Assembly (NCBI GenBank): GCA_000153445.1
Contig: CH672400.1
Location: forward strand, 134,782 to 198,781
Direction: 5' to 3'
Source of the DNA: a gamma proteobacterium HTCC2207
Lineage (GTDB): Bacteria; Pseudomonadota; Gammaproteobacteria; Pseudomonadales; Porticoccaceae
DNA: 64,000 nucleotides
Shown: one piece after another, positions 15,229-21,577 of the stretch
Position numbering within the stretch: position 1 is the stretch's first letter
How the letters are laid out: every line of letters starts with the position of its first letter
Program-made: the position numbers and the translations under genes
The notes under the pieces: model-generated
Seen by the model: the letters and a program-made list of their open reading frames with translations, nothing else
Databases searched by the model: none
Told to the model about the DNA's origin: nothing

Positions 15229-15717
15229 TTACGCTTCGCCGAATGGACTTTTGACAATACCTTGCTGAGAGCAGTTTGCCAATAGTTGAGCCACAGTTTC
15301 GCCATTGGAAAGTCTGAGCTGAGCATTGATATCCGCCAGGGGAACTAGAACAAACGCGCGCTCGCCTATGCGCGGATGGGGGATTGTTAGGCGCTCGCTA
15401 TCGAGCTGCAGATTGTCGTAAAACAAAATGTCTAGATCTAGAGTTCGGGGACCCCAGTGAATACTGCGGACGCGGTTTTGTTGTTGTTCTATCGCTTGCA
15501 GCGCATCGAGTAGTTCCAGTGGAGGCAGTTGAGTACTGAGCTGTGCTGCGGCATTGATAAAGTCTGGCTGCTGAGGACCAATTGGTGGCGTCTGATAGCG
15601 ACTTGATACCCTGATCAGCTGAATGTCAGGGTGTTGCGCAATGGCCTTAAGGGCGCTATCTAGCTGGCTGTGCGGGCTGTCCAGGTTACTGCCCAAGGCA
15701 ATATAGACATCGGCCAT
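15229..15717 (-). CDS. folK: 2-amino-4-hydroxy-6-hydroxymethyldihydropteridine pyrophosphokinase
   Basis: HPPK transfers pyrophosphate from ATP to the pterin precursor in folate synthesis. The 162-residue protein shows YIALGSNLDSP at the N-terminus, FINAAAQL, and the signature WGPRTLDLDILFYD, followed by the HPRIGERAFVLVPL end block. The ATG overlaps the pcnB stop (TAATG), so the two are translationally coupled as in other gammaproteobacteria. Confidence 0.97.
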   Translation of the reverse strand: MADVYIALGSNLDSPHSQLDSALKAIAQHPDIQLIRVSSRYQTPPIGPQQPDFINAAAQLSTQLPPLELLDALQAIEQQQNRVRSIHWGPRTLDLDILFYDNLQLDSERLTIPHPRIGERAFVLVPLADINAQLRLSNGETVAQLLANCSQQGIVKSPFGEA

Positions 15718-17078
15718 TACTGCGCTGGATCCGCTTTAGGTTTGGGGCTATTGCGTCTGCGCCGGCGTTTTTTCGGGCTGCGGTCAGTAGCCATAACATC
15801 GTCCGCCATAGTCTGACGGCTTTCGGGGTTAGCGTCCTGATAGGTCGTCCACCAGGCACCGAGACCGTCGAGATTTTCCCCAGCCTGCTCCCGGAGCAAG
15901 ACAAAATCATAGGCTGCTCTAAAGCGTGGGTGCTCGACCAAACGCTGGGCACGATTGCCTCCGCGACGTCGCAGGTGCAACTGTAAGTCCCATATTTCAC
16001 GCATTGGAATGCTAAAGCGCTTGGGAATTGCAGTGACGGGAATCTGGTTGAGAATAATTTCTCCCGCCGCTTTGCTCAGAGCATAGGGTGATGAGTTACC
16101 ATTCTTCTCAAAATTACTGGCGAGTCTCTGCACCGCTGGCCACAACAGAGCGGCATAAATAAAGGCTGGGGTAACACGCTGAGAAGCCCGGATACGTTTG
16201 TCTGTATTGATCAGTGCCTGAGATACCAGTTTCATGGGTATACCCTGACGATCATTGAGCATAGGCCCTAGCTGAGGAACTATATAATCGAACAGGCGGT
16301 GCTCAACCAATATCTTAAAGGTGTCTAGACCCTGGCCGCTCATAAACAATTTCAGTGTTTCATCAAACAGACGCGGTGGCGAGACCTGCTGCAGATCAGC
16401 GGCGCGGTGCTTCATTGGATTTGCAGTGGCAGGTTCTATATTAAAACCGAGCTTGGCGGCAAAGCGCGCGACCCGCAACAGGCGCACTGGATCTTCGCGA
16501 AAGCGAGTTTCAGGATCGCCGATAATACGGATTATTTTGGCATCTACATCGTCAATACCATTGGTAAAGTCGTGGATGCTGTTGGTGCTGGGATCGTAAT
16601 AGAGCGCATTTACAGTGAGATCGCGGCGTGAGGCATCCTCTTCCACCGTGCCAAAGACATTGTCTCTTGTAAGCATGCCCGAATCAGTTTGCTGGCGACG
16701 GTTTTTGCTGGTCGACTGACTGCTGTTAGACCTAAACGTGGTGACCTCGATAATCTCGCGGCTAAACTGGACATGGACGATTTGAAAACGCCTGCCAATG
16801 ATTCGCGAGCGGCGAAACAGTTCTTTGACTTCCCAGGGTTTGGCGCTAGTGGCGACATCAAAGTCTTTGGGTTTTAAACCGATAAGTAGATCGCGCACAC
16901 AGCCGCCGACTACATAGGCTTCAAATCCGGCCTTTTGTAAGACATCGACTACCTTAAAGGCATCGCGATTGATCATATCCGGCGAAAGGCAATGCTGGCC
17001 GTCGCCAAAAACTAGCGGGCCGGAGGCGCTTTTTGAGGATTTATCTCGTTGGAAAAACTGACTTATGCGTTTCAGCAT
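15717..17078 (-). CDS. pcnB: Poly(A) polymerase I
   Basis: Adds poly(A) tails to RNA 3' ends, marking them for decay. The nucleotidyltransferase head has GGCVRD at 58-63 and the catalytic DFDVATSA with Asp 72 and 74, then EIIEVTTFR, RRDLTVNALYYD and EDPVRLLRVARFAAKLGF, which separate poly(A) polymerase/CCA enzymes from others. The long C-terminal domain and basic end (SPKKRRRRRNSPK) identify PcnB rather than Cca. Length 453. Its leader on the minus strand contains a single AATAACAA about 20 bases before the ATG. Confidence 0.95.
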   Translation of the reverse strand: MLKRISQFFQRDKSSKSASGPLVFGDGQHCLSPDMINRDAFKVVDVLQKAGFEAYVVGGCVRDLLIGLKPKDFDVATSAKPWEVKELFRRSRIIGRRFQIVHVQFSREIIEVTTFRSNSSQSTSKNRRQQTDSGMLTRDNVFGTVEEDASRRDLTVNALYYDPSTNSIHDFTNGIDDVDAKIIRIIGDPETRFREDPVRLLRVARFAAKLGFNIEPATANPMKHRAADLQQVSPPRLFDETLKLFMSGQGLDTFKILVEHRLFDYIVPQLGPMLNDRQGIPMKLVSQALINTDKRIRASQRVTPAFIYAALLWPAVQRLASNFEKNGNSSPYALSKAAGEIILNQIPVTAIPKRFSIPMREIWDLQLHLRRRGGNRAQRLVEHPRFRAAYDFVLLREQAGENLDGLGAWWTTYQDANPESRQTMADDVMATDRSPKKRRRRRNSPKPKADPAQ

Positions 17079-17167
17079 TAAGTGATTGCCGATTAGGTTG
17101 TTATTAGAGCTGTGAGTTTAACAGAGGAAACAACTCGACGGGAGACTAAAGCGGCCTTTGATGGCAG

Positions 17168-18466
17168 TTAGTCGCTGAGCGACTCATCGCCTTTTTTGCG
17201 GCTGATACCCAGTTTATTGCGTCTTTCCCAGAGGCTCTTGCGGCTGATGCCGAGTTTCTTGGCGAGATCGGTTTCGCTCATATTCTCTTGGTTTTCAAGC
17301 ACGAAGCGGGTGAAGTAATCTTCCAGTGACAGACCTGCGGGAGCGTCGTAATCTTGGGTGATACGCTGGTCAATTGAACCAGCACTAAGATGCCTTGTTA
17401 CTTGCGTTGGGCTTGGAGTTATTTCGCCAAGGCCGATAAGCTCAGCATCGATTGGCTCCCCTGGAGAGGCCAAAATTACCGCCTGCTGCAGGGTGTTTTT
17501 TAGCTGCCGCAGATTGCCTGGCCAATGATAGTCGATCAGTGCCTGAGCGGCGTCTTCAGTTAATCCCGAGCTGACATCATCAAAGTGTGTGAGGATTTCC
17601 TGGATAATAACCGAGATGTCGGCGCTTCGTTGGCGCATTGTCGGCATGGCTATGCTGACAACATCAATTTCATAGTAGAGATCTTTGCGGAACAAATTAG
17701 CTTTACAGAGCTTTTCTAAGTCCTGATCTGATGAACAGATAAAGCGACATTGACTGTTCTGCATTGCTCTCAGGAGTAACGGCTGCAGAGAGGCCTCTAA
17801 TTCAGCGATATTATTGAGAAACACAGTGGTGCTCGAGCTGCTAACATCGAGCTGACTGGCAAACTCAGCTTCTTTGAGCCCGGCACAGTTGATGTTGATA
17901 AAGCGTTGCCGAGTGGATTTTTTGCCGTTGTGGATAGCCAGTGCCAGAGCAGATTTACCACTGCCGGTTTCGCCTTGGATCAGGATTGGTAAGTCGGAAG
18001 CTGCGACCTTGGGGATTACTCGGGTGATCTTCTTAATGGCCTCACTGGACCCCAGTAGTGCTATATCTCCCAATGTTTTCGCGGCTACAGCTCGGTGTCT
18101 CGATGCGCTGAGAATGCGTCTAACTGAGAGCAACATCTCGTCGTGATCAAAGGGTTTGGATATATAGTCGACAGCACCCTGGCGCATAGTATCGACCGCT
18201 GAGCGCAGGCTGGCGTAGCTGGTCATAATCAGGACTGGCACTGGATCGACCATTTTAATTAGATCAGTACCCAGCTGCCCGGGAAGGCGCAGATCACTGA
18301 TAATCAGAGCGAATTGTTTGAAATCAACGTTTTCACTTGCGGCTTTGATGCTAACCACATCACTGACATCGTAGTCATGGCGCTCGAGCAATTTACGCAG
18401 GGATACACGGATGATCTCTTCGTCTTCGACGATCAGAATTTTATCTCTGTGGGGCGCATTGCTCAT
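17168..18466 (-). CDS. cbrB: CbrB-like NtrC-family response regulator with degenerate AAA+ domain
   Basis: Response regulator partner of the CbrA kinase. The receiver domain (1-120) is intact: acidic E14/D15, phosphoacceptor D58, T82, K104. A Walker A GETGSGKS lies at 165-172. After N193-C194 only about 18 residues lead to TTVFLNNIAE, so the whole GAFTGA loop is missing, and the Walker B acidic pair is Asn218-Asn219. The second arginine of the FREDLYYRL motif is Glu (FRKDLYYEI). The sensor II WPGNLRQLKN and a Fis-type helix-turn-helix (388-425) remain. It therefore should not activate sigma-54 promoters. Assignment to CbrB rests on its place between cbrA and pcnB, as in Pseudomonas. Confidence 0.85.
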   Translation of the reverse strand: MSNAPHRDKILIVEDEEIIRVSLRKLLERHDYDVSDVVSIKAASENVDFKQFALIISDLRLPGQLGTDLIKMVDPVPVLIMTSYASLRSAVDTMRQGAVDYISKPFDHDEMLLSVRRILSASRHRAVAAKTLGDIALLGSSEAIKKITRVIPKVAASDLPILIQGETGSGKSALALAIHNGKKSTRQRFININCAGLKEAEFASQLDVSSSSTTVFLNNIAELEASLQPLLLRAMQNSQCRFICSSDQDLEKLCKANLFRKDLYYEIDVVSIAMPTMRQRSADISVIIQEILTHFDDVSSGLTEDAAQALIDYHWPGNLRQLKNTLQQAVILASPGEPIDAELIGLGEITPSPTQVTRHLSAGSIDQRITQDYDAPAGLSLEDYFTRFVLENQENMSETDLAKKLGISRKSLWERRNKLGISRKKGDESLSD

Positions 18467-18552
18467 AGATCTTTTGCGTGGTCTCGGGACTGAGCCATAT
18501 TGTTACCTTGAAGCTCTGCTGACACAAGTAACTTAATGGCTCTGAGTCCGGT

Positions 18553-21411
18553 TTAATGTTTATTTAGGTCGAACAGTAACTCTGCCGTGGTGCCGCGGTC
18601 ACTGTTGTTAGCTGGGCTTGATAGGCTCACTTCACCGCGAAGATTTTTAACTAGATTGAACACCATCCAGAGGCCCAAGCCAGTGCCCTGGCCAGGTTCT
18701 TTAGAGGTGATAAAGGGTTCGAATAGCTGATCTTTGATGGGCTCGGCTATACCGCTGCCCTGGTCGCTGATCATAATCCGCAGCTGCGGCCCATCAGGTT
18801 GGCAGCTGATTTCGATAGGGCTGTCGTCCGTGGTAGCGTCTCGGGCATTGCCCAGTAGGTTGAGGAAAATTTGCACCAGTTGGCGGTGATCGCTAACAAT
18901 TTCTATATCGGCGTCGACTAGGCAGACAAACTGCTCTCTCTGCTGGTCTTTGGTGAGGCTAAGTATTTGTATGGCCTCTTCTGCGGCAGCCAGCACCGAG
19001 ACTGGCTGCAGTTGATCATGGTAGGTTTGCTCGCCGCGCGAGAAATTAATCAACGATTGCACAATCACATTGATACGGTCAGTTTGCGAGAGAATGAGCT
19101 CCGCAGAGGTTTCAATTTCTGCGACTTCAGTTTCATGCTGTAAATTCTGTGCGATGCAGGCGATTCCGGTCACCGGGTTGCCGATTTCATGGGCTACCCC
19201 TGCCGCCAGTCGACCCACCGAGGCCAAACGTTCATTATTGATATAGTTTTGACGCAATAATACTGACTTGGTCTGGTCTTCCACCAGAAGAATTAAATCG
19301 TCGTCAGGGCTCATGGCGCTGGATTTCTGCAGGCCAAACCATTGAGTTTTACCTGCTACTTCGAGTTCTAAACTGTCCTTGCTGGATTCGTCTTCCTGTA
19401 AAAAGACACTGATCGCAGCGCGCCAAGGCTCAGGCAGATCGCTAATCAGGCTGCCGGCCACCATTTCGCTATCGATACCGGTGTAGCGGGTCATGGAACT
19501 ATTCCACTTGATAATCTCACCGCCCTGTCCCACGGCAATAATGCCAATTGGCAGATTGTCGAGAATTTCCCGGTGGTGCATACGCAGCTTATTTAACTCG
19601 CTGGCAATACCGGTGAGGCGATCTCCCTCGATGGCGAGTACAGACTCAATCAGATAGATATCATCGGGCTCTGGACGCATGGGTGTCTCCAGAGGCAATG
19701 TTTGTTCCATCATTTTGTAGGCCGCCAGCACGCCGAAGTTTAGGGTCAGCGATGAGTAGAGACTGTCGCGCAGTTTGCGTAGCGCTGCGGGTCGGGTTTC
19801 ACTGAGTTCAAAGTCGAGTTTATGCAGTGCTCGGTTAATCTCTACATCGGCTTCATTGCCGAGCAACCTGCGCAGACTGAACAGCATCTGCTCAACGGAA
19901 TGGTGGCTCAGCTGCACGCGTGCAGGGATATAGATATTGTCGACCATGCACAGTCGGGCAAAGGATTGCTGTTCTCTGTCCATGGGGCTGAGTATGGAAA
20001 AAACCGCACAGAGAAAGATATTTACCATCAGTGCTTCAAAGGCCCAGGTCTGCCAGTTTTCCATGCCAAAGATAAGTACTTTGTCGGTCCCCGGCAGCTG
20101 CCAGCTCCAATCGCCAAATAGCATCGGCAGGGCCAGTGCCACCAGCCATAGGGATACGCCGCCGATTAATCCGGCAATCACACCATTGCGGTTAATTTTT
20201 GGCAGATAGATTGAGGCCAGCATGCCCGGTGTTAAATGGGCCAGTCCGGCAAATCCAACGAGATAGAGATCGGTGATACTGCGGGCTTTGACTATATGGT
20301 TGAGCAGCGCGCCGGCGATAATCAGCCCGGCTGAAACTGCCAGAAGGCGCAGATTTATCCAGCGGCTCAAATGAGGCTGTTGATGAAGCGCTTTGGTCGG
20401 CAAAATAAAACTATTGAGTACCATCTTAGCCAGCATGGTCGACAGGTTGCACAGCAGTGCAATGGACACCAGTACGATACTGGCTGCCCCTAGTCCTGCT
20501 GCGATGGGATGTTGGACAAGAGCGGGAATGGCGAATAGATAGTCTTGCAGTGGCGATGAGGATTGCACGGCAATACCAGACCACAGCAGTGGGAAGATGG
20601 TGATGCTTGCGAGCAGCATCAGCAGTGGATAACCCCAGGCACTGACGCCAACCTGATCATCAGAAATATGCTCGGAGATAACAATGCTAAAGTTGATCGG
20701 CAATGCAAAACTGGCGGCGAGAAAAATAACAAATAGGCTGTAGGAGGAATCCATACGCTGCACTATTAATCGCTGACCGCTGCTGACAACCCATTGGTTC
20801 ATTTCACCGATGCTGCCAAAAATGGATTCAACCGAGATCAGGGCTGAGGTTGCCAGTGCCAAAAGCAGTAAAAAACCTGCTGCGGCCATTACCCAGCGCA
20901 GGCTGCGGGCCATCCCCTGCTTAATGGCACTCCAGTTAATCAACATAATAACTGCGACAACAGTTAGCCTAAACAGCCATTTATCGCCTTCGAAGAGAAA
21001 GTCGTGAACTGATGAGAGCGCCAGAAATTGAGCGAGAAACAGTGGCATGGTGACAATAATCAGGCTGCTACAGGCAATCACTGCAATCGCTCTACCGCGA
21101 AAACGGAACGTCAGAAAATCTACTAGGGAGGCAAAGCGGATAATCTCATTAAGCCTGCGGATCGGATAAAAAATTAGCGGTGAAAAGAGAAATACCATGG
21201 TGAAGGCAAATAGCGCTAACACCACACTAAAGCCATAGCGACCGGCCATCTCTATAGTCCCAGTGGCCAGCAGTGCACCAGTGCCGGCAAATAACGCCAA
21301 TACCAAAATCAGGCTCTGGCTGCGTGCACCGCCATAGGCTGCAAGCAAGTAAGCGCCCAGAGTGCTGGCTAGCAGGAAGCCAATTGCGATAAGGGCTATA
21401 TCAAGACTCAT
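18553..21411 (-). CDS. cbrA: CbrA-like sensor histidine kinase with sodium/solute symporter domain
   Basis: A 952-residue fusion of a solute:sodium symporter-like domain (about twelve to thirteen helices, residues 1-480), a linker, a PAS domain (about 605-710), and a kinase core. The phosphorylated histidine is H741 in AGVAHEIGNPVTG; the ATPase part shows LNLLGNARDA, DQGSGI and GTGLGLWMV. In Pseudomonas CbrA with CbrB sets carbon/nitrogen use and transports histidine. I chose ATG at 21411, which has AGGA upstream; the start at 21453 lies inside the preceding small gene. That gene (cbrX) overlaps it by eleven bases. Downstream cbrB follows after 86 bases. Confidence 0.92.
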   Translation of the reverse strand: MSLDIALIAIGFLLASTLGAYLLAAYGGARSQSLILVLALFAGTGALLATGTIEMAGRYGFSVVLALFAFTMVFLFSPLIFYPIRRLNEIIRFASLVDFLTFRFRGRAIAVIACSSLIIVTMPLFLAQFLALSSVHDFLFEGDKWLFRLTVVAVIMLINWSAIKQGMARSLRWVMAAAGFLLLLALATSALISVESIFGSIGEMNQWVVSSGQRLIVQRMDSSYSLFVIFLAASFALPINFSIVISEHISDDQVGVSAWGYPLLMLLASITIFPLLWSGIAVQSSSPLQDYLFAIPALVQHPIAAGLGAASIVLVSIALLCNLSTMLAKMVLNSFILPTKALHQQPHLSRWINLRLLAVSAGLIIAGALLNHIVKARSITDLYLVGFAGLAHLTPGMLASIYLPKINRNGVIAGLIGGVSLWLVALALPMLFGDWSWQLPGTDKVLIFGMENWQTWAFEALMVNIFLCAVFSILSPMDREQQSFARLCMVDNIYIPARVQLSHHSVEQMLFSLRRLLGNEADVEINRALHKLDFELSETRPAALRKLRDSLYSSLTLNFGVLAAYKMMEQTLPLETPMRPEPDDIYLIESVLAIEGDRLTGIASELNKLRMHHREILDNLPIGIIAVGQGGEIIKWNSSMTRYTGIDSEMVAGSLISDLPEPWRAAISVFLQEDESSKDSLELEVAGKTQWFGLQKSSAMSPDDDLILLVEDQTKSVLLRQNYINNERLASVGRLAAGVAHEIGNPVTGIACIAQNLQHETEVAEIETSAELILSQTDRINVIVQSLINFSRGEQTYHDQLQPVSVLAAAEEAIQILSLTKDQQREQFVCLVDADIEIVSDHRQLVQIFLNLLGNARDATTDDSPIEISCQPDGPQLRIMISDQGSGIAEPIKDQLFEPFITSKEPGQGTGLGLWMVFNLVKNLRGEVSLSSPANNSDRGTTAELLFDLNKH

Positions 21412-21577
21412 TTGATTTCCTGTGGCGCTGGAGTATGTATGCCGCAAATACAATCAGTGCCCAGACCACAAAAGGTCTAAACCAGCTGCCATGAGATTCA
21501 ACAGACCATCGCGATGCTAAGGGCACTGCGACACTGCTGAGAAAAATTAAAACCGCGACTAATCGGTAGTTAAGCAT
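21401..21577 (-). CDS. cbrX: Small membrane protein upstream of cbrA, CbrX-like
   Basis: Reading the minus strand from ATG at 21575-21577 gives a 58-codon frame ending in TGA at 21401-21403, eleven bases inside cbrA. It has two hydrophobic segments (about 5-21 and 35-49), a basic middle around R23-W24 and R34, and a basic end QRHRKSNES. Position, size and overlap match cbrX of the Pseudomonas cbrXAB operon; sequence identity could not be checked. The overlap implies that its translation influences cbrA translation. A weak GAG precedes the ATG. Confidence 0.7.
   Translation of the reverse strand: MLNYRLVAVLIFLSSVAVPLASRWSVESHGSWFRPFVVWALIVFAAYILQRHRKSNES

Follow-up and report, generated by a model that had tools for sequence, protein, structure and literature searches.

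A CbrB without its sigma-54 contact loops in SAR92-type Porticoccaceae, and the possible transfer of its circuit to sigma-70

In Pseudomonas, crcZ lies directly 3' of cbrB and is activated by CbrB together with sigma-54. We analyzed a 64,000-nucleotide stretch of the genome of the gamma proteobacterium HTCC2207 (the window), in which a cbrB gene sits beside cbrA and pcnB yet encodes a protein that had been predicted, from its sequence, to have lost the machinery for sigma-54 activation. The locus raises the question of what such a CbrB still does, and of what has happened to the promoter on which it acted. The original prediction was that the CbrAB system had been rewired, either to work at sigma-70 promoters or to repress.

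The cbrB locus and the lesion in the AAA+ domain

In the list of open reading frames, cbrB is a frame of 432 aa on the minus strand (17168–18466), with a receiver at aa 9–117, an AAA+ remnant without the loops L1 and L2 at aa 137–345, and a Fis-type helix-turn-helix (HTH) at aa 383–432. Pfam recognizes the receiver, Sigma54_activat (whose best stretch stops at profile position 70), the AAA lid, and, with weak matches, the HTH. Upstream lie the sensor kinase gene cbrA (18553–21411, minus; 952 aa from an ATG at 21411, with PAS, HisKA, and HATPase_c domains; an alternative longer start is a TTG at 21453) and a small ORF of 58 aa that overlaps the cbrA start (21401–21577, minus) and is called cbrX-like from its position. 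Downstream are pcnB (15717–17078, minus), a neighbor conserved in relatives, and then folK and panB.

The gene adjoins cbrA in the order gluQ-cbrX-cbrA-cbrB-pcnB and carries the single CbrB-type HTH match in the whole window genome (G000; 2.63 Mb in 6 contigs, 98.6% complete); by both marks it is the CbrB orthologue, and no second, intact CbrB was found of which it could be a decaying copy. All the genes of the predicted cbrXAB-pcnB-folK-panB context are in place, but the match to that context is not exact: A third mark of CbrB, a crcZ gene 3' of cbrB, is missing. The gap between cbrB and pcnB is only 89 bp (17079–17167, minus), and the CrcZ-like sRNA gene and promoter that relatives have here, with pcnB as the downstream flank, were not found in the window. 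The CbrB of MOLA455 is 88% identical to that of the window.

Aligned with intact CbrB, the window protein has two clean deletions. The single loss of about 30 residues first proposed was thus roughly right in total, but it divides into about 18 residues before Walker B and 13 after it. The first deletion, between NCAGL and Walker B, includes GAFTGA (L1) and falls at the codons around residues 204–209 (17840–17857, minus), where the aligned region measures 18–22 residues in loopless proteins versus 37 in intact ones. The second (L2) falls after Walker B and before sensor I, at codons 239–240 (17747–17752, minus). From PspF and NtrC, we take the two deleted stretches to be the loops L1 and L2 that touch sigma-54 and promoter DNA.

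We tabulated these residues in 37 loopless and 15 intact CbrB proteins from the family Porticoccaceae, leaving out G051 (L094), which lies at a contig edge, and G004 (L157), because its receiver and GAFTGA are in a different frame from the remaining AAA+ domain. The L1 region has 37 residues in every intact protein and 18–22 in every loopless one; the L2 region has 21 residues in 15/15 intact proteins versus eight or nine in 36 of the 37 loopless proteins and 16 in one. The Walker-B Glu is present in 15/15 and 0/37, respectively, and the Arg of the second arginine finger in 15/15 and 4/37; the window CbrB has Asn-Asn and Glu at these places, as had been read from its sequence at the outset. 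The Walker-A Lys is retained in 31 of the 37 loopless proteins, the receiver Asp in 37/37 (13/15 among the intact), and the HTH Arg is invariant in all 37, in line with the receiver and HTH that the original prediction had described. Two intact rows of the alignment have Ala at the phosphorylation site. Neither L141 (G074) nor L144 (G073), two loci with a GAFTGA-bearing CbrB, gave a match to the usual LRLPG motif of the receiver.

The window CbrB therefore has neither the GAFTGA loop (L1) nor the Walker-B acid pair that mark sigma-54 enhancer-binding proteins. Its AAA+ fold is another matter: The AlphaFold model (mean pLDDT 80, pTM 0.54) has the AAA core strands and lid helices, and its Foldseek neighbors include NtrX, NtrC1, LuxO, VpsR, FleQ, and PspF, so that in the model the core seems to be kept.

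Distribution, descent, and selection

Among 112 Porticoccaceae genomes, 63 have a match to the CbrB HTH, and all 63 loci were taken. Sixteen of these cbrB genes keep the machinery (14 with GAFTGA, G005 with GSFTGA, and G004 with GAFTGA and a frame break), 38 are loopless, and nine are without the AAA+ domain, encoding proteins of 182–191 residues that retain receiver and HTH. In the window's genus 41 cbrB genes were found, and every one is without GAFTGA; close relatives thus give no sign of the assembly deletion that had been considered at first.

In an order-wide sample, 348 of 390 genomes have a CbrB HTH match. Among the matches listed, the sole frame shorter than 443 codons outside Porticoccaceae is one of 77 codons (G270), although frame length alone is no proof of GAFTGA; GAFTGA or GAFSGA is present in 71/71 named loci examined outside the clade. 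Sigma-54 itself has not been lost, since rpoN was found in 107 of the 112 Porticoccaceae genomes.

A PcnB tree, made by a quick method and without G028, G031, and G054, has one clade (SH-aLRT 97) that holds all 35 placeable loopless rows, eight of the nine AAA-less rows, and seven of 12 rows from genomes without detected CbrAB. The loss is in this sense clade-wide, and the gathering of the loopless rows in a single clade is compatible with the loops having been lost once, in an ancestor, which would have been followed by complete loss of the AAA+ domain at three places within the clade. For genus g14, in which every cbrB gene is AAA-less, direct loss of the domain could be an alternative route. 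The ninth AAA-less CbrB, that of G096, sits among intact relatives.

Purifying selection is visible across the whole gene: cbrB dN/dS is ∼0.06–0.15 where dS is unsaturated (28 pairs from eight genomes, drawn from the window clade and its closest relatives), and nine further loopless pairs give 0.09–0.27 (G051, L094, at a contig edge, left out). Of the three domains, AAA+ shows the lowest conservation in 14/14 loopless pairs versus 2/13 intact pairs; between G000 and G013, for example, identity is 51% in AAA+, 80% in the receiver, and 84% in the HTH. By these comparisons loopless cbrB is a gene in use, whose AAA+ motor appears to be held less tightly.

The fast divergence of the AAA+ remnant, together with the complete absence of the domain from nine genes, is what a decaying pseudogene or an assembly artifact might produce. 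This we consider extremely improbable, as loopless genes occur in 38 genomes with long open frames and dN/dS well below 1, and their receiver Asp and HTH Arg are invariant (37/37). Occurrence in 38 genomes, together with purifying selection on the gene, means that the lesion is neither chance nor an assembly slip.

The sRNA beside pcnB, its promoter, and the palindrome

Rfam finds CrcZ between cbrB and pcnB in the three Pseudomonas loci scanned (L029, L046, and L054). In Porticoccaceae a unit of about 140 nt that resembles an RNA gene occupies the cbrB-pcnB gap. Its parts are AANAANAA repeats rich in A, GGATGGATTGC, and a terminator hairpin in which some of the changes are compensatory. None of the 112 genomes exceeds the gathering cut-off of Rfam CrcZ (RF01675), and 17 match at E up to 1. 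Since the Rfam score is not reached, we name this sRNA CrcZ-like from its place, its AANAANAA repeats, its promoter, and its terminator. Our own model of it (R1) matches 83 of the 112 genomes, including genomes without CbrAB; the 24 loci from which R1 was built are all among those matched, where it matches by construction. On 21 named loci outside Porticoccaceae it gives one weak match, so its reach is short.

The CrcZ-like sRNA persists beside pcnB in 12 genomes without detected CbrAB (L194–L205). Reading these loci, we found pcnB in 12/12 and gluQ directly upstream in 11/12; in G108 the locus begins at a contig edge. We also note that genus g11 (G087, G088, G089, G091, G092, and G093) has two tandem R1 matches ∼270–330 bp apart, recalling the CrcZ/CrcY pair; these genomes do not appear in the list of CbrB HTH matches.

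The promoter in the gap differs with the state of the protein. A sigma-54 −24/−12 promoter (TGGCAC-N5-TGC type) is present in 16/16 intact Porticoccaceae loci, and 63 of 71 other named intact loci have one in the first 500 bp 3' of cbrB, versus 1/36 loopless and 1/9 AAA-less loci. When the named regions are shuffled, one occurs in 4.4%. (The 36 loopless loci leave out G031 and G054, which have no pcnB on the locus; 27 of them have the sRNA and nine do not.) The lone loopless match, in G015, is absent from its relatives and lies upstream of a sigma-70-like pair that is common to them. G096 (C20, L156, genus g12) encodes an AAA-less CbrB of 189 aa, and the adjoining sRNA still has its subsites and a good promoter of sigma-54 type. 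It is a true exception: Either the AAA+ loss is very recent or another activator is in charge.

That G096 retains this promoter, that the window genome has one rpoN and four other full-length Sigma54_activat matches, and that the AAA+ core seems, in the model, to be kept could all be taken to mean that loopless CbrB is still a sigma-54 activator, through unusual contacts or in mixed oligomers with another sigma-54 activator. We judge this very unlikely, because the protein has lost its catalytic acids along with both contact loops, nine relatives manage without any AAA+ domain, and the sigma-54 promoter of the classical target has vanished. A CbrB that acts without sigma-54 remains the preferred reading.

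Loopless genomes have TTGaag-N16-TAGAAT-like pairs at the former promoter spot, similarly far from the RNA. These putative sigma-70 promoters, picked by pattern and by eye, are −35/−10-like pairs at a fixed distance from a palindrome (see below); as single matches they are mostly no better than shuffles, so the evidence for them is their shared position and their conservation.

TGTTAC and GTAACA are subsites of CbrB that were probed by mutation in P. putida (PMC6296734). In intact loci these subsites are spaced apart. In 14 of the 27 loopless genomes with the sRNA, a compact palindrome, TGTTWC-N5-GTAACA, lies 5' of it (counted at up to two mismatches to TGTTAC-N5-GTAACA; ∼1% in shuffles). Four of 16 intact loci have one as well, and it is absent at crcZ from 13/27 loopless and 9/9 AAA-less genomes; the palindrome thus does not accompany the change everywhere, nor is it confined to it. 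Among the 12 CbrAB-less genomes it is absent at the sRNA in 11 (in one of the 12, G108, only 47 bases could be searched), and G084 has a two-mismatch match. Two genomes of 1.4 Mb, G029 (L147) and G034 (L158), have a loopless CbrB-like gene, no cbrA match, and a perfect palindrome 5' of the sRNA; their four CbrAB-less sisters have none.

The distance from the palindrome center to the −35 could be measured in 12 of the 14 crcZ sites, the other two being without a pair by the pattern used. It is 53.5 or 54.5 in eight loopless genomes, and the others, 44.5 (G027) and 64.5–66.5 (G050, G066, and G067), are off by about one helical turn. A helical-phase test, devised post hoc with the data already seen, gives R = 0.89 and P ∼ 0.009 on six distinct distances. 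Class-I activators such as CRP work at helically phased distances.

The window subclade, the proposed circuit, and known systems

In the window genome and eight sisters, R1 finds no sRNA (stricter filters), nor does it match in the window with filters off. The cbrB-pcnB gap in these nine genomes is at most about 167 bp, and CbrA and CbrB are retained. In G004 and G005 the gap resembles an sRNA locus although R1 gives no match there, which limits the call of absence in the window subclade; a diverged or moved sRNA is possible. Weak Rfam CrcZ matches in G035, G043, G051, and G052, considered as a relocated sRNA, were dropped, as the DNA there looks coding by eye. A search for Crc in the window genome found no candidate: The sole PF03372 protein (L206) looks by eye like exonuclease III, which we take it to be. 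The Hfq-Crc branch may therefore have been lost there together with the sRNA.

Palindromes of the form TGTTWC-N4-6-GWAACA number one to three per genome versus zero to nine for the reversed control (15 genomes), so that only place and conservation count. In the same vein, TGTTAC-N8-20-GTAACA has no site in the window genome (the backward control has one), and N5 palindromes at up to two mismatches number eight within the window versus 5.8 expected, giving no signal. One site stands out by its place. The 17-mer TGTTACATTAGGTAACA is present in 10/10 window-group genomes (the nine and G027), with one base different in G033. Read in context, a 17-bp site lies between folA and an operon beginning with DUF3450 in 11 of 15 genomes searched, namely, nine of the ten window-group genomes and G057 and G032, which have other central bases. 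Three of the 15 (G022, G034, and G056) have no such site, G022 and G056 being only 74%–75% complete.

In the window genome the operon after the site comprises DUF3450, MotA/ExbB, ExbB, ExbD, TonB, and TPR genes, and the site is the sole N5 site of its pattern in that genome, where ∼0.16 exact sites would be expected by our own arithmetic (12 fixed bases, 2.63 Mb). Across 11 genomes its 17 columns have a conservation of 0.963, just below the block preceding the start codon (0.968). Its center lies 54.5 bp (eight genomes) or 55.5 bp (two) from the −35 in the ten of 11 genomes measured, and the 54.5-bp spacing is the one found at crcZ in relatives. Out of ten N4-6 loci checked, three are this TonB site, five (L223, L227, L228, L230, and L231) are inside long reading frames, and two (L226 and L229) are outside them. 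By position and conservation, the DUF3450(TtpB)-TtpC-ExbB-ExbD-TonB-TPR operon is our best candidate for a CbrB target in the window subclade.

We also found a promoter-like element 5' of cbrB itself, CTTGTGTC...GGTAACAATA (18498–18528, minus), with a GGTAACA half-site at 18501–18507. The element is present in 13 among 31 loci listed (G000, G012, G013, G027, G028, G033, G035, G036, G039, G043, G052, G058, and G059), and with its GTAACA half-site it is conserved across the window clade. A half-site so placed and so conserved suggests that cbrB may be autoregulated through it.

NtrC and FleQ sometimes occupy sigma-70 promoters without activating them. CbrB might likewise be a repressor or autorepressor only, in keeping with the half-site in its own promoter-like element and with three P. 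putida CbrB targets that are repressed and thought to be sigma-54-independent (PMC6296734). The full palindromes point the other way: At both crcZ and the TonB operon they sit ∼54.5 bp 5' of the −35, with helical phase kept, the place of an activator, which argues against a blocking repressor. We therefore think it unlikely that CbrB only represses, and of the two modes originally suggested for the rewired system, the repressor is the less favored.

A further possibility is that another regulator reads the palindrome, CbrB having no role at crcZ in many lineages and being kept for other targets or another function. The missing crcZ palindrome in 13/27 loopless and 9/9 AAA-less genomes would agree with this, as would palindrome counts per genome no higher than those of the reversed control. 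Yet the hexamers of the palindrome are CbrB subsites, the HTH and receiver are the conserved parts of loopless CbrB, and the palindrome is missing from 11 of 12 CbrAB-less genomes, among them four sisters of the perfect-site genomes G029 and G034. On this balance a different reader seems quite unlikely, and we infer that CbrB binds the palindrome.

Taken as a whole, the best explanation, in which we have fair confidence, is that CbrAB here is sigma-54-independent and probably a class-I sigma-70 activator. The change to sigma-70 that the original prediction foresaw is supported by the clade-wide loss, the purifying selection, the vanished sigma-54 promoter, and the palindrome ∼54.5 bp upstream of a sigma-70-like −35. 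In the ancestor of SAR92-type Porticoccaceae (genera g1, g8, and probably g14), CbrB would have lost both sigma-54 loops and the Walker-B acids, leaving a DNA-binding response regulator that makes no use of sigma-54. As its receiver and the kinase are intact, it would be phosphorylated by CbrA; probably as a dimer, it would bind TGTTWC-N5-GTAACA ∼54.5 bp upstream of the −35 (approximately −90 from the start site) and recruit sigma-70 RNA polymerase in class-I fashion, without ATP hydrolysis. The ancestral target, the CrcZ-like sRNA, would have exchanged its sigma-54 promoter for one of putative sigma-70 type. In several lineages the AAA+ domain would then have been removed wholly, giving receiver-HTH proteins of 182–191 aa; these lineages indicate that the remnant is dispensable, and where it persists it may be a dimerization spacer. 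In the window subclade the sRNA gene would have been deleted, leaving the TonB operon as candidate target, whose control would amount to energizing outer-membrane nutrient uptake under carbon shortage.

The full scenario asks for more, and our confidence in it is evenly divided: that a whole sigma-54 circuit passed to sigma-70 in one lineage, the activator losing both loops and then its AAA+ motor while the target promoter changed and the half-sites were kept, and that the window subclade later dropped its CrcZ-type sRNA and let CbrAB drive TonB uptake directly. If true, this would be a natural series of intermediates between an enhancer-binding protein and a simple receiver-HTH regulator, and an uncommon look at a regulator that changed along with its target; the DNA that is controlled appears, as far as sequence can tell, to have been rewired to match. 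It would also put TonB-driven uptake in coastal SAR92-type bacteria under a proposed switch that responds to carbon limitation. One family still holds the intact, the loopless, and the motor-less versions of a single orthologous regulator, with differing promoter states of the target, and from them the succession of events can be worked out and put to the test.

A 2022 review confines CbrAB and CrcZ to Pseudomonadaceae (PMC8871633); we find CbrAB and a CrcZ-like RNA well outside that family. With the CbrB of the Pseudomonas CbrAB-CrcZ system, the window type shares the cbrA-cbrB-pcnB order, the three domains, a very similar HTH, and the TGTTAC/GTAACA subsites. It differs in being without L1/GAFTGA, L2, and the Walker-B acids, in the replacement of the sRNA's sigma-54 promoter, and in the window subclade, where no sRNA was found; the loopless clade often has the compact N5 palindrome, whereas Pseudomonas has three subsites 20–25 bp apart.

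The candidate target operon has the gene order TtpB-TtpC-ExbB-ExbD-TonB-TtpD of TonB2, described in Vibrio (PMC6957404). The Vibrio TonB2 system has a putative Fur box where the window operon has a CbrB-type palindrome. In Teredinibacter, two tonB genes are reported to have a role in cellulose use, and for none is regulation by iron clear (PMC10734418).

The AAA-less CbrB proteins share an architecture (receiver and Fis-type HTH) and a similar size (182–191 aa) with the ActR/PrrA/RegA family, which they presumably resemble without belonging to it. The four of nine scanned with the family model NF033791 score 52–64 bits against a cut-off of 250, in the receiver part only, and so are not members; judged by these scores, the likeness is one of convergent architecture.

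The window CbrB, homologous to enhancer-binding proteins and without a functional GAFTGA, is in this respect like regulators of the TyrR/HupR type. Rhodobacter NtrC is another protein of enhancer-binding type that has left sigma-54. To our knowledge, what is known of the conversion of a sigma-54- and ATP-dependent regulator to sigma-70 comes from single end points (TyrR and HupR, for example), and in the open-access literature we searched we found no account of a loopless CbrB, nor of an activator and its promoter switching sigma factor together. One review describes TyrR, DhaR, and HupR as sigma-70-dependent relatives of enhancer-binding proteins, with GAFTGA damaged or absent, and VpsR as a probable further relative that left sigma-54 (PMC3162934). 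Those are single proteins compared with one another; for CbrB, orthologues with and without the loops can be set side by side, the target promoter differing in step, and some members add the complete loss of the AAA+ domain. GAFTGA-less relatives working with sigma-70 are thus already known singly, and what CbrB adds is an unusually complete evolutionary series in one orthologue.
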